Source: Actinomycetota bacterium (GTDB lineage Bacteria; Actinomycetota; Aquicultoria; Aquicultorales; Aquicultoraceae). Taken from it: a DNA stretch of 63,865 nt. The translations under genes and the position numbers were made by a program. The notes under the pieces are model-generated. The model searched no databases and was not told the DNA's origin. It worked only from the letters and a program-made list of their open reading frames with translations. Positions within the stretch are counted from its first letter, which is position 1; the number at the start of each line of letters is the position of its first letter. The DNA lies in the NCBI GenBank assembly GCA_030018005.1, contig JASEGT010000003.1, positions 1 to 63,865 of the forward strand. Direction: 5' to 3'. Shown piece after piece: positions 5,991 through 49,757 of the stretch.

Positions 5991-6038
5991 TTGACTATTA
6001 GCGATTCCCCGGCTTATAATATCAATGGAAATTGATAT
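5991..6038 (+). promoter_or_regulatory. Promoter with ArsR-type operator
   Basis: TTGACT (5991-5996) and TATAAT (6015-6020) are separated by 18 bp. A perfect inverted repeat, ATATCAAT-GGAA-ATTGATAT (6019-6038), overlaps the -10 end and contains ATCAA-N6-TTGAT, the classical ArsR/SmtB box. The regulator gene starts just downstream, so autorepression released by a metalloid or metal is inferred. Confidence 0.75.
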
Positions 6039-6075
6039 AACAGGCATTGATATGTTCAATCAGAATGGGGACGTC

Positions 6076-6444
6076 ATGGAGAAGTGTTGCGTCAAAGGGA
6101 CGACGGAATTCAAACAGCTCGAAGAACTCTCGACCTATCTGAGAATCATCGCCGACACCAACCGCCTGCAGATTCTTTGCCTCCTCAAGAAAGGCGAGCG
6201 CTGTGTCTGTAATATCCATGAACCGCTGGGTTTGCCGCAGAATCTCGTCTCCCATCATCTCAAGACCTTGCGGGATGCCGGTCTAGTCATCGCCCGCCGT
6301 GAAGGCAAGTGGGTGCACTATCGCATCGATATCGGGAAGCTTAACTACTTAACCGACCTATACAACCATGTGGTTTTAGGAGGATTTGATGAAAATCAGA
6401 GTATTGGGACCGGGATGTGCAAACTGCAAGAAGCTCGAAGCTAA
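6076..6444 (+). CDS. ArsR-family transcriptional repressor
   Basis: About 122 residues from ATG 6076, chosen because GGGGA (6067-6071) precedes it; ATG 6025 lies inside the operator. The winged-helix region contains RIIADTNRLQILCLLKKGERCVCNI followed by LGLPQNLVSHHLKTLRDAGLV and the wing RREGKWVHYRID. CVC in helix alpha3 is the As(III)/metal-sensing site of classical ArsR proteins, and CC near the N-terminus may add ligands. The stop overlaps the start of the mini-thioredoxin gene by 56 bp, in a different frame. With the permease downstream it forms a metalloid or metal export operon. Confidence 0.9.
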   Translation: MEKCCVKGTTEFKQLEELSTYLRIIADTNRLQILCLLKKGERCVCNIHEPLGLPQNLVSHHLKTLRDAGLVIARREGKWVHYRIDIGKLNYLTDLYNHVVLGGFDENQSIGTGMCKLQEARS

Positions 6445-43889: not shown

Positions 43890-44366
43890 TTATTTAAAAA
43901 CAAGCCACTCGTTGCCTTTGCCCTTTTTGGTGTGGACGAGATGGAATTCGCCTTCCAGCCGCTTGCCCTTGAGGACGATTTTGAGACTGCTAGGCTTCTT
44001 CTGGGCGACCTCGAAGGTGCCGGTGTCCCAAATAGTGACGGTGCCGGCTCCATACTGACCCTCAGGAATCGTTCCCTCGAAATCGATATAGTCGACCGGG
44101 TGGTCCTCGACCATGATAGCGAGTCGCTTGACTCCCATAGAGATAGATATTCCTTTGGGGACGGCCCAGCTCTTAAGAACCATCTCCCCCGAGGGTTCAT
44201 CCGACTCAAAGTAGTCGGCCGGGAGCTCGAGGCGGAAGTCATAATGGTGATGACTGGCGTGATGGTCTTGGACGACAAACCGCCCACCATGCTCCGTGCC
44301 GGATTCGCCGCTCGGCTCAGGGGTCTTATCAAAACTTCTTTTCTGCTTATAATCCTCGAGTGCCAT
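43890..44366 (-). CDS. Stand-alone LigD-type 3'-phosphoesterase
   Basis: 158 residues, matching the PE domain of bacterial ligase D. GRFVVQDHHASHHHYDFRLEL holds the catalytic His residues, SWAVPKGIS and VEDHPVDYIDFEGTIPEGQYG the rest of the site. The enzyme trims 3'-phosphate or ribonucleotide from DNA ends in end joining. No ligase, polymerase or Ku gene is adjacent, so it may work with partners elsewhere or in single-strand break repair. Confidence 0.92.
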   Translation of the reverse strand: MALEDYKQKRSFDKTPEPSGESGTEHGGRFVVQDHHASHHHYDFRLELPADYFESDEPSGEMVLKSWAVPKGISISMGVKRLAIMVEDHPVDYIDFEGTIPEGQYGAGTVTIWDTGTFEVAQKKPSSLKIVLKGKRLEGEFHLVHTKKGKGNEWLVFK

Positions 44367-45754: not shown

Positions 45755-46147
45755 TTACGACTGGAGCTTATTACGGAGTTCTAAGATTTCTGCGACTTCT
45801 TCTTCACCATTGAGCTTTAAGAGATGAGAGATAATTGGGCTTGCCGAGCCGCCTAGGATCCTATCGATAACGTTGTCGACAATGTTATTCGCCATGTCTG
45901 TGCTACTAATAGCCGGCTTGTAAGAGTAAGTCTTATTTTTCTTATCCTGCTTCAGGATGCTTTTCCGGGCAAGATTATTCATTGCCGCCATGACCGTTGT
46001 GTACGGTATGTAACCCTTCAAGAGTAGTTCTTCGTGGAGTTCACGTACGGTTGTCCTTCCTCTCGTCCACGCTATCTGCATTATCTCAGCTTCAAGCTCG
46101 TTCAAGCCGCTCAGCCGTACGCTGCGTTTTCTTATAGTTTGTGCCAA
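45755..46147 (-). CDS. BlaI/MecI-family repressor (second copy)
   Basis: 130 residues from TTG 46147, with GGAGG 8 nt upstream. LSGLNELEAEIMQIAWTRGRTTVREL and GYIPYTTVMAAMNNLARKSILKQDKKNKTYSY are the BlaI winged helix; the dimerisation part contains NIVDNVIDRILGGSASPIISHLLKL. It closely resembles the BlaI protein at 49006-49410 along its whole length, so they are paralogues. It lies downstream of the radical SAM operon terminator with its own start signals. No M56 sensor is adjacent to this copy; it may answer to the one at 47.9 kb. Confidence 0.9.
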   Translation of the reverse strand: MAQTIRKRSVRLSGLNELEAEIMQIAWTRGRTTVRELHEELLLKGYIPYTTVMAAMNNLARKSILKQDKKNKTYSYKPAISSTDMANNIVDNVIDRILGGSASPIISHLLKLNGEEEVAEILELRNKLQS

Positions 46148-46321: not shown

Positions 46322-46358
46322 TAGAAAAAGCGGGGTCCAACCATACGGACCCCGCTTT
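46322..46358 (-). terminator. Terminator of the RiPP-like operon
   Basis: On the minus strand AAAGCGGGGTCC-GTATGGTT-GGACCCCGCTTT, 12 bp, followed by TTTTT, 9 bp after the radical SAM stop codon. Confidence 0.92.
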
Positions 46359-46366
46359 CCGTGTTT

Positions 46367-47737
46367 CTAGGCACTTGCTTTGTCGGCTAGATCCGCTTTG
46401 ATGTAGTCAAGGTAAGCGAATATGGTCTCCCGAGCGTTGTTGCAGACGGGCTCGTTGATATCGCCGTTTACGACAAGAGCGGAGTATGCACAGCCGCCTC
46501 CGCAGAGAAGGGCAATGTCGCACTCCCGGCACTTGTTCATCCGCAGGACATTGCGACCATTCCACATCTTCACAACGTCATCGAACATCTCGAGTTCGGG
46601 ACGGAATTTACCCATCGCCAAATCAGGTCGACCCAGGCATTCGGTACAGGGATAAATATATCCGTCTGGCCCGAAAACAATGTGTTCGAGATTGTTGGCT
46701 TCGCAGTAGTGGAGAAGCGGAAGCACTGGTCGGCTTGTGCTCACGACTGACTTGATATGCTTCAAGTTTCGAAAGAGACCTAATCTGAACGCATCTGCCA
46801 TCTCTGGTGATTCTTTGACTTGATCATAGAATTCCTTCACTAGCAGATTCTCTGGAAGGAAGAACTCATACGTTCCACTGCACGAATGGTCCTCTACGGG
46901 TGATAGGCTGCATCCAAAGTCGGGGTTATCCACCCACCTTTTTGTCACTAACAGGTCAAAGTGCTCACGTAATCGACCAATATTTTGCATATCTAAATTG
47001 GTGCGGACGTTGATTTTGATATTCTTAGCGAGAAACATTTCGATAGCAGCGCAGACATCATCAAAGCTGCCACGTCCATCGTGAGACTTTCGTCTCGAGT
47101 CGTGTATCTCCTTAGACCCGTCAAGTGTTACCTGTGCTGCTACAATGACGTCCTCAAACTCATCAAACAGGTCGGCATAGTTGTTAGCGTAAGTGCCGTT
47201 TGTTACAGCACTAACCGGCAAAGACCTTTGACGCGCTTCAGTGAGCACATGACGTATGGCTTGCTTGTTGCGAGGTAGTAAGGGTTCACCGCCAAATAGC
47301 TTGATCAGCTTACGATGCTTACTATATCCATCGCTTAGCTCATCAATAGCGGCAAAGACATGTTGAACATCATCGATGTCCATGTAGTTTCTGCGGGTAT
47401 AAGTCAAGTCACCCTCAAAACAATAGGCGCATCTTAAGTTGCAGTTATAAGTCAGGCTCACGATATAGTCGAGAGTTTTTTCTTGCTTGCCGTGAGCATC
47501 CTTAATAAGCTGCAGCCAGCGCGTCTCGTCCTCTGGGCTATCGAAAATGTAGCCCCTTTTTCTTAGCCGTTCCTTCGTGAATTCATCGAGAGTTGAATGT
47601 TGTGCAGCAGAGAAGTTCTTGAGTGTATCATAGACGTGCGGGGTGATAATGTCGATTGCTCCAGTTAATGTGTTTAGCAGCAGAAACGCTTCTTCTGAGA
47701 TACGGTAGGTTAATATTCGCTTATTGACTCTCATCAC
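46367..47737 (-). CDS. Radical SAM/SPASM peptide maturase
   Basis: 456 residues. The N-terminal 90 residues (RILTYRISEEAFLLLNTLTG) resemble the substrate-recognition front end of peptide maturases. Radical SAM core: VSLTYNCNLRCAYCFEG (CxxxCxxC binding the SAM [4Fe-4S]) and KLFGGEPLLPR. C-terminal SPASM: YPCTECLGRPDLAMGKF, then KCRECDIALLCGGGCAY and a final Cys in EPVCNNA, enough for two auxiliary clusters. Members install thioether, C-C or other links in ribosomal peptides or mature sulfatases. Its start lies 9 bp after the stop of a 34-residue Cys-rich peptide gene, which is the likely substrate. Fourth gene of the BlaI-M56-peptide-maturase operon. Confidence 0.9.
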   Translation of the reverse strand: MMRVNKRILTYRISEEAFLLLNTLTGAIDIITPHVYDTLKNFSAAQHSTLDEFTKERLRKRGYIFDSPEDETRWLQLIKDAHGKQEKTLDYIVSLTYNCNLRCAYCFEGDLTYTRRNYMDIDDVQHVFAAIDELSDGYSKHRKLIKLFGGEPLLPRNKQAIRHVLTEARQRSLPVSAVTNGTYANNYADLFDEFEDVIVAAQVTLDGSKEIHDSRRKSHDGRGSFDDVCAAIEMFLAKNIKINVRTNLDMQNIGRLREHFDLLVTKRWVDNPDFGCSLSPVEDHSCSGTYEFFLPENLLVKEFYDQVKESPEMADAFRLGLFRNLKHIKSVVSTSRPVLPLLHYCEANNLEHIVFGPDGYIYPCTECLGRPDLAMGKFRPELEMFDDVVKMWNGRNVLRMNKCRECDIALLCGGGCAYSALVVNGDINEPVCNNARETIFAYLDYIKADLADKASA

Positions 47738-47746
47738 AACCTTCTC

Positions 47747-47851
47747 CTAGCCCCAACAAATGGCCCAACAGCAGGAAGCCGCGTTTTCCGCGCATAGCTC
47801 CTCCGCGACGATTGCATCCCAAAGCATGTCGTCCCTATTAAGAGATAGCAC
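47747..47851 (-). CDS. Candidate RiPP precursor peptide, 34 aa, Cys/Trp-rich C-terminus
   Basis: A short frame missed by length cut-offs. GTG 47851 is preceded by TAAGGAGGTG with 8 nt spacing, the best ribosome binding site of the operon. The peptide begins MLSLNRDDMLWDAIVAEEL (leader-like, acidic amphipathic) and ends CAENAASCCWAICWG, giving four Cys and three Trp in 34 residues. The C-terminal core CCWAICWG offers Cys or Trp side chains for radical cross-links. It sits between the M56 peptidase gene (62 bp upstream) and the radical SAM/SPASM gene (9 bp downstream). The core sequence matches no RiPP class that I can name. Assignment as precursor is inference from position, size and composition. 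Confidence 0.75.
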   Translation of the reverse strand: MLSLNRDDMLWDAIVAEELCAENAASCCWAICWG

Positions 47852-47913
47852 TTAACTCACCTCCTTATTGGTTGTAAGAGTAGGAATAAAACGAGAAGAG
47901 ATAGGTATAGAGA

Positions 47914-48963
47914 TTAGCGAAGAAAGATATTGTGGCCACCGATATTAACGATGACGCCGATTTGCACGTAGACAAGGAGGACAAAGAGGGCGGTTCTTAA
48001 TAAGGTTCGCAGATAGGAGGATTTCTTCATTCGTTGCGGCTGTTTGACCGAGTTTATTCTATGCTCAAGCTTGGATTGGCGCATCAGAAGGCCTTTAGCG
48101 AGCGCTGGATAGGTTTGATGCTGAAGCGCCGGTTGTTTCCTGTAGAAGAGTGCCACATCTACAAGCATGTTTGCGGCTGTTTCAGGTGCGGCGTTCGTGA
48201 CGTTAAGGGCTAGCCTGTCACAGGCTTTTTCCTTTTCGTCCTCAAGCTTACTATAGATATAGTGAATGACAGGATTTATGAACATAAGATCCCGCAACAT
48301 AAGCGCGAGCCAACTCGTAAGATAGTCTTTCCGTCGCATATGCGCTAGCTCGTGGGCCAGCATTATTTCAAGCTGCTCTTCTGGAAATTCGGCGAGAAAC
48401 TCTTTTGATATTGCGACTATCGGCACCCTATAGCCGACACTAAAGGGTACAAATTGGAATTTCTTGGAATATACAACGCGGGGATATGCGACTCCAAGCA
48501 CAGGCACGAGCCTATCGAGGATTTCATAAATCTGCGGATACTCAGCCCTGTTCAGAGGTTTCTCATGCTTGAAATGATTAAAGAAGAGAAACAACTGAAG
48601 CCACCTGGCTGCGATAATTGCAAGCACTGAGACTCCCATGACCAGCAGGACTAAAACGACGGCGTTAGAGCTGTAACTGAACTCCGCGACCTCATTTAAG
48701 GGCGATGTTATAAGATTCAAAGGGTCGGGAAAGCGAAGTATCTTTTGGAATGCTTTCTCTGATTGCAGCAACTGCACTTGAGACGGGTTATCGAACAAGA
48801 TCAGAAAAGGCTTCACGATAGGCAAAAAGAGAAACATAAACCTGGTCGCCGGATTTTTTACCCGAAATACTTTAAAGATTACAAGGACAAGCAGCAGCGT
48901 AATTGCCGCATTAAAGATAGATGGCATGATGTGGTTAAATAAAAGCGCTTGCCAGACCGGCAC
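47914..48963 (-). CDS. M56-family membrane metallopeptidase (BlaR1/MecR1-like)
   Basis: 349 residues. Three or four membrane helices in the first 120 residues, then the zinc protease motif IMLAHELAHMRRKDYLTSW (HExxH) with the downstream DEKEKACDRLAL Glu, and a final helix ALFVLLVYVQIGVIVNIGG. There is no C-terminal penicillin-binding sensor domain, so it is not a beta-lactam receptor; the chain ends 6 residues after that helix. In BlaR systems the protease causes inactivation of BlaI. Here it follows a BlaI gene by 42 bp and could sense the mature peptide or membrane stress (inference). Confidence 0.9.
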   Translation of the reverse strand: MPVWQALLFNHIMPSIFNAAITLLLVLVIFKVFRVKNPATRFMFLFLPIVKPFLILFDNPSQVQLLQSEKAFQKILRFPDPLNLITSPLNEVAEFSYSSNAVVLVLLVMGVSVLAIIAARWLQLFLFFNHFKHEKPLNRAEYPQIYEILDRLVPVLGVAYPRVVYSKKFQFVPFSVGYRVPIVAISKEFLAEFPEEQLEIMLAHELAHMRRKDYLTSWLALMLRDLMFINPVIHYIYSKLEDEKEKACDRLALNVTNAAPETAANMLVDVALFYRKQPALQHQTYPALAKGLLMRQSKLEHRINSVKQPQRMKKSSYLRTLLRTALFVLLVYVQIGVIVNIGGHNIFLR

Positions 48964-49005
48964 AGTCGACCGCCTTATCAGTCGAAACTCGTCTTCGCGG
49001 AACAG

Positions 49006-49410
49006 CTATTTATTCAATTTTTTCTTTAACTCAAGTAGTTTCTCGACATCATCGTCGCTCTTAAGTTTGAGTAAGTGCGAAACGAGCGGTGTTGAAACGC
49101 CGCCAAGAATTCGGTTGACGACCGAATCGACAATCGCCTTTGCCGTATTGTCCCGCGATATCGAAGCCGAGTAGACATATGCCTTACCATCTTTGTTCTG
49201 CTTCAACAGTCCTTTCTGAGACATATTGTTCATGGCGGCCATAACGGTCGTATAGGGTATGTAGCCTTCTTCAAGCATCGTCTCATGGACCTCTCGAACG
49301 GTGATTTTCTTGTGCTGCCAGACGATATCCAGGATATCGGCTTCGAGTGTGCTAAGGCCGTTAATGCCTAACTTCTTAGACCTCTTGCGGGTCCGCGATT
49401 CCTTTTCCAC
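49006..49410 (-). CDS. BlaI/MecI-family repressor
   Basis: 134 residues. Winged helix LSTLEADILDIVWQHKKITVREVHETML and GYIPYTTVMAAMNNMSQKGLLKQ, then the dimer domain AIVDSVVNRILGGVSTPLVSHLL. Basic N-terminal extension (RTRKRSKK). First gene of the operon blaI-M56-peptide-radical SAM; probably represses that operon by binding palindromes in the 49447-49534 region. A close paralogue lies at 45755-46147. Family rule: M56 protease activation leads to BlaI cleavage and derepression. Confidence 0.92.
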   Translation of the reverse strand: MEKESRTRKRSKKLGINGLSTLEADILDIVWQHKKITVREVHETMLEEGYIPYTTVMAAMNNMSQKGLLKQNKDGKAYVYSASISRDNTAKAIVDSVVNRILGGVSTPLVSHLLKLKSDDDVEKLLELKKKLNK

Positions 49411-49757
49411 TATAAGTCCTCCTTTTAGGGCGTTTAATACGTAGAGTTTATTTGTTAAACGCTAAATAGTCAAGCGACGGAACCCTATCATCCTGCAATA
49501 ATCTATAGTTTACGGCAATATTTCTACTGTAAACAATATGATATTGAAATATGATATAAGAATAACACGCAGATGTTGCCATGTTAAGCATATTTGCGGC
49601 ATGATTTGCCTGGATAAGCGTCGAGGCTCTAATGCTTTAACGGCATTGTTCTTATTCAGTCTGTTCTGCGGCGGGCAAGTGCAAAGCCGTAGTCTTTATG
49701 TTATAACCTGAATGGGAATCATATAAACGGAAACACTATCGGCGCAAAGGAGAGATT
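49411..49757 (-). promoter_or_regulatory. Promoter/operator region of the RiPP-like operon
   Basis: About 350 bp, AT-rich. GTTTA-TTTGT-TAAAC (49447-49461) and GTTTAC-N15-GTAAAC (49508-49513 and 49529-49534) share the GTTTA/TAAAC half-site and are good BlaI operator candidates. The divergent rubrerythrin gene starts at 49758, so its promoter must also be here. No protein gene is evident. Confidence 0.5.

Follow-up and report, generated by a model that had tools for sequence, protein, structure and literature searches.

Four consecutive minus-strand genes at 46367-49410 of the window (the whole 63,865-nucleotide stretch of actinomycetotal DNA that was analysed) encode a BlaI repressor, an M56 membrane protease, a 34-residue peptide and a radical SAM/SPASM enzyme. 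We think it reasonably probable that these genes form a chromosomal RiPP cassette, in which the maturase modifies the core of the peptide, the product is a substrate or an activator of M56, and BlaI links these steps to transcription. The general kind, a radical-SAM RiPP, is known; the precursor family and its coupling to a sensorless BlaR1-type protease appear to be new. The proposal in the earlier note that this is an undescribed RiPP-like operon stands. No paper linking M56 or BlaI to a radical-SAM RiPP was found in the literature searched, most subscription journals lying outside the search. Searches of the literature for the NCBIfam family names returned only unrelated papers.

Organization of the operon

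The gene order is blaI1 > M56 > 34-aa ORF > radical SAM/SPASM gene. The four consecutive genes with a closing terminator, as described earlier, were confirmed by ORF calls, Pfam and a scan for stems. The features of the locus are as follows.

49445-49473, minus strand: operon promoter TTGACT-N17-TAAACT, from a pattern scan and conservation 5′ of blaI1
49446-49460, minus strand: candidate BlaI operator GTTTAacaaaTAAAC, over the promoter −10, kept with variations in family genomes
49006-49410, minus strand: blaI1, BlaI/Penicillinase_R winged-helix repressor, first gene of the operon (Pfam PF03965, 1e-25)
47914-48963, minus strand: M56 membrane zinc protease, BlaR1 N-terminal part only (PF05569, Peptidase_M56, 3e-22)
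48721-48735: R[FLIM]PDP motif, M56 residues 77-81, in a predicted outer loop
47747-47851, minus strand: precursor peptide MLSLNRDDMLWDAIVAEELCAENAASCCWAICWG, 30 homologues, with W11, C27, C28 and C32 invariant where complete
46367-47737, minus strand: radical SAM/SPASM peptide maturase with an N-terminal RRE-like domain (Pfam Radical_SAM, 4e-15; SPASM by TIGR04085)
46327-46358, minus strand: intrinsic terminator 3′ of the maturase gene, with a GC-rich stem of 12 bp and, in minus-strand sense, a T5 tail
46298-46269, minus strand: blaI2 promoter-like site TTGATA-N18-TATAAT, from a pattern scan
45755-46147, minus strand: blaI2, a second BlaI just past the terminator, 53% identical to blaI1

The TTGACT element was found at the same place 5′ of blaI1 in 10 of 10 family genomes, and the candidate operator is a dyad, GTTTA-N5-TAAAC, that overlaps the −10 of the blaI1 promoter. 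The blaI2 gene, which was missing from the earlier reading of the locus, lies 3′ of the maturase gene in all nine family genomes whose contig reaches there. A second M56 gene was observed near the blaI2 counterpart in one genome (G009, L042:5729-6763). A stand-alone LigD-type 3′-phosphoesterase domain gene (PF13298, 1.6e-33) was also noted at 43890-44366 of the window.

The 34-residue peptide belongs to a conserved family

The 34-codon ORF has a GTG start, a ribosome site GGAGGTGA and the C-terminal end SCCWAICWG. With ORF and ribosome site found and the family conserved, the peptide gene with a CCWAICWG C-terminus that had been read from the sequence is borne out. The ORF is one of 30 peptides from Aquicultoria and two other families of the phylum, which have in common the leader motif M-[KR]-S-[LI]-N-x4-L-W and the core motif CC[WF]-x(2-4)-C. 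In an alignment of 25 peptides W11, C27, C28 and C32 were invariant. Of the 29 complete peptides, 25 have W and 4 have F at the third core position, and the gap between CC and the last C is 2, 3 or 4 residues. Synonymous and non-synonymous differences in the 34-codon gene gave only small counts. No polar residue after CC is conserved in these 29 peptides, many of which have no polar residue there, and the core neighbours of the Cys residues are aromatic or aliphatic. Pfam and NCBIfam models gave no convincing match to the 25 peptides. In three genomes (G319, G254 and G388; L086, L087 and L090) the peptide carries a C-terminal extension of about 14 residues past the CCW core (GMSANPDEPLPQVS and similar), which is possibly a trimmed follower.

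The ORF pattern CC[WFY]x(1-5)C near a stop was found nowhere else in the loci than at the cassette position. Because the pattern is confined to the cassette and the profile counts of the peptide match those of the maturase, the short ORF is not a product of chance.

Peptide and maturase occur together

Of the 36 genomes that represent the class, 18 contain relatives of the maturase, as do 12 others from the phylum, which gives 31 loci in all (two contig-split fragments of G026 were counted as one). Whether homologous maturase loci keep the small ORF was the check that the earlier note had called for, and the peptide was present at 29 of the 31. The two exceptions are damaged or cut: the contig of G376 starts inside the maturase, and in G219 the end of M56 runs into mid-maturase, a deletion or misassembly. 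In the latter locus (L088, about 6028-6100) the M56 3′ end joins an internal part of the maturase coding sequence, and the peptide is missing. The G006 peptide is broken across the ends of two contigs.

When the whole class was searched with a peptide profile, each genome gave as many peptides as maturases, with two in G011. The genomes of the class without a maturase gave no match to the peptide profile except G034 (74% complete), where M56 and the peptide lie on a short contig and no maturase was found. The presence and absence of peptide and maturase matched with a Fisher p of 1e-7 among genomes at least 90% complete, a value uncorrected for kinship. A homologue search of genome contigs with a single protein returned only two Aquicultor loci, which are the G003 and G001 contigs. 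With Candidatus Aquicultor as the source of the nearest named loci, the window falls in class Aquicultoria of the Actinomycetota. When plasmid-borne relatives were sought, the matches listed included only maturases of at most 29% identity.

The maturase resembles CteB in fold

In the enzyme, the radical SAM motif reads CNLRCAYC and the SPASM domain contains seven Cys. C99, C103 and C106 of the former and Cys 345, 364, 403, 406, 412, 416 and 432 of the latter were invariant in 19 homologues; with all ten Cys kept, the assignment of radical SAM and SPASM clusters as in peptide maturases proved correct. In the AF2 model (pLDDT 89.7) the N-terminal unit consists of three strands and three helices, like the RRE of CteB, and the best PDB match by fold and by profile was CteB (5why/5wgg). 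The nearest NCBIfam maturase families have cutoffs of 340-855 bits; the window maturase scored 97-143 on them, and all 19 homologues matched the same set of families. As these scores are far under the cutoffs, the maturase belongs to none of the nearest named NCBIfam families. Judged from the sequences, it probably modifies the precursor core. Since the core has no usual acceptor and three invariant Cys stand beside aromatics, the maturase may form an unusual linkage. Candidates are a thioether that ends on an aromatic or backbone carbon and a C-C link in which Trp takes part.

The M56 protease has a BlaR1-type site and no sensor domain

The catalytic residues of BlaR1 are H201ExxH, D210, E242xxxD246 and R294 (PMC9834060). 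Their counterparts in M56 are H204-E205-H208, D213, E245/D249 and R302, a HExxH...ExxxD gluzincin site in a multi-helix membrane protein, as in the BlaR1 type. HExxH, D213, D249 and R302 were present in 27 of 27 M56 homologues, and E245 in 26. The best match of the AF2 model was BlaR1 (8exq). In this model the protein ends about 16 residues past the last predicted helix, and the distance from HExxH to the end is 142-165 residues in all homologues, indicating that the beta-lactam sensor domain is absent in all of them, as had been claimed for the window protein. Most homologues have a conserved R[FLIM]PDP; the loop that carries it corresponds to the BlaR1 extracellular loop EL1 and is a candidate ligand or inhibitory loop.

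BlaI1 is 78-99% identical across the family. It was more conserved than M56 in every pair tested, and M56 was either less conserved than the maturase or differed from it by no more than a point. A separate BlaI-M56 pair was seen elsewhere in the genome of the window (L114, G000:C32, 5193-6586). The genes next to it are multihaem cytochrome-like and CcdA-like, and no maturase gene was evident in the vicinity.

Association of M56 with the peptide and maturase across gene orders

M56 is in the locus wherever the contig reaches, adjoining the peptide or the maturase, across three gene orders. Most loci have the order BlaI>M56>pep>rSAM, and BlaI leads the operon in 20 loci. In G015, G030, G026 and G021, M56>pep is divergent from rSAM, and in one G011 copy (G011a) pep>rSAM is convergent with M56. 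BlaI is not adjacent in six loci (G015, G030, G026, G180 and both G011 copies); any BlaI is there elsewhere in the genome or was not found, and M56 is still located with the other two genes. The only genes that recur across families are those for BlaI, M56, peptide and maturase, while the flanks (rubrerythrin, M42 peptidase and others) change. No transporter recurs in the flanks across 30 loci, and the remark that the operon has none continues to hold.

The genome of the window (G000) was compared with a congener, G002 (L036), whose contig ends after the maturase. Protein identity was 98% for BlaI and 90-93% for the flanks, 61% for M56, and 62% for both peptide and maturase. Immediately past blaI1, nucleotide identity fell to about 0.63 from about 0.90, and it was low through M56, peptide and maturase. 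In this one pair, the step at the blaI1/M56 junction marks window 46367-49000 as replaced or fast-diverged as a block. In agr and comQXP, pheromone and receptor genes show linked variation. The divergence of M56, peptide and maturase resembles such linked variation, with one sharp example. Moreover, rSAM and M56 distances correlated at 0.94 over 25 loci, which is partly species kinship. On the other hand, the M56 proteins of the two G011 copies are 24% identical whereas their maturases are 67% identical, and the strict pairing of M56 and maturase is therefore not absolute. On comparison of the loci, peptide, maturase and M56 show the sequence behavior of one functional unit.

Comparison with known systems

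The ranthipeptide systems CteB/SCIFF and PapB (5wgg/5why; TIGR03974, NF047865) share with the cassette a radical SAM and SPASM enzyme, an N-terminal RRE-like domain and a small Cys-containing precursor beside the enzyme. CteB and PapB join Cys to a side-chain carbon of Thr or of Asp/Glu (PMC8326336, PMC9413430). In the cassette precursor, by contrast, three Cys are conserved, CX3D is absent and no Asp/Glu/Thr/Asn acceptor is conserved in the core; the cassette also includes M56 and BlaI. Assignment to SCIFF or PapB was rejected, with 97 bits against 425 for SCIFF, about 123 against 340 for PapB, and neither Cys-Xn-Asp/Glu nor Cys-Xn-Thr/Asn motifs in the precursor. The maturases of CefB (NF038107), TIGR04463, geopeptide (TIGR04280) and Clo7bot (TIGR04334) were among the best NCBIfam scores, with nearly full-length matches. 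They were set aside with 117-143 bits for the window protein against 400-600, and the cassette precursor is unrelated to the NCBIfam families.

BlaR1-BlaI and MecR1-MecI share the M56 gluzincin site, a helical membrane part and a BlaI repressor partner. The cargo of the cassette is, however, a RiPP pair and not a beta-lactamase or PBP2a, and a beta-lactam receptor of the BlaR1/MecR1 kind was excluded by the missing C-terminal penicillin-binding sensor domain. The best scores of the two BlaI proteins were to the copper repressor CopY, but reached only 52 and 50 of 122 bits. BlaI1 and BlaI2 have no Cys, thus no C-terminal Cys metal-binding motif, and are not CopY.

The epipeptide operon epeXEPAB of Bacillus subtilis, likewise of the radical SAM RiPP kind, encodes EpeP, a membrane metalloprotease that processes the modified epipeptide (PMC10885120, PMC12871923). 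It differs in that EpeP is an M50 protease, EpeE is an epimerase, epeAB is an ABC transporter and BlaI is absent. With M56 instead of M50 and no recurring transporter in 30 loci, the cassette was not assigned to the epipeptides.

Discussion

In the reading that we favor, the leader (MxSLN....LW) would be held by the RRE-like domain of the maturase, which would modify the CC[WF]x(2-4)C core, probably by links between at least one of its three Cys and residues close by. M56, which lacks the sensor, would be the membrane partner of the product, either removing the leader and releasing a hydrophobic product or being activated by the product. Where BlaI is present, M56 would cleave it, and the level of product would be coupled to operon expression, raised by the cleavage. 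At the level of sequence, comparison of the loci establishes the coupling of M56, peptide and maturase, the active site is intact and the promoter is conserved; we infer the crosslink chemistry, the cleavage of leader and of BlaI by M56, and the feedback loop. What speaks against this reading is the core without a conserved polar acceptor, the low identity of the two G011 M56 proteins and the six loci in which BlaI is not adjacent. The peptide- or envelope-responsive switch suggested in the earlier note is plausible.

A tentative extension, possible rather than probable, is peptide self-sensing: the modified CCW peptide would be processed and perceived by the sensorless BlaR1-type protease, BlaI would then be cleaved, and M56, peptide and maturase would co-vary as matched ‘pherotypes’, in the manner of agr or comQXP.

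It is rather doubtful that BlaI and M56 only regulate, with M56 using its membrane part or outer loop to sense a signal from the envelope or membrane and cleaving BlaI, and the RiPP acting as an antimicrobial or envelope effector that leaves by a general exporter. BlaI-M56 pairs are classic regulators, BlaI heads 20 of the operons behind a promoter conserved in the family of the window, and R[FLIM]PDP is conserved in the predicted outer loop. However, M56 keeps with peptide and maturase where BlaI is not adjacent, and the G002 M56 diverges with these two and not with BlaI. The gene orders, the BlaI-free loci and the G000/G002 step fit pure regulation less easily than they fit the favored reading.

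That the peptide provides the scaffold of a group with redox or metal-binding function, a cofactor-like product as with PQQ or mycofactocin that M56 cuts out, seems unlikely. The three invariant Cys beside aromatics, the usually single copy per genome with broad presence in the class, and the lack of immunity or export genes would suit it, but no conserved partner enzyme is there to use the cofactor and the core varies in length (x2-4, C-terminal extensions), unlike the PqqA and MftA cores, which are near-fixed in length. Very improbable is a small regulatory membrane peptide or leader ORF that is no maturase substrate: short and with a hydrophobic C-terminus as it is, the ORF has moved, together with M56, off the maturase promoter in four genomes and is still conserved, its leader and Cys conservation are typical of RiPP precursors, and the enzyme has an RRE-like domain and the CteB fold.

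The cassette adds a precursor family without a Pfam or NCBIfam match, and in the literature searched no M56 protease has been tied to a RiPP. Its hosts are little-studied, uncultivated bacteria, and a protease of the kind that senses antibiotics in staphylococci, BlaR1, is found here without its sensor part. As M56 accompanies the peptide even where BlaI is missing, a three- or four-gene system becomes available in which the stimulus of sensorless BlaR1-like proteases is directly testable. Peptide self-sensing, if true, would say what sensorless BlaI-M56 pairs sense.
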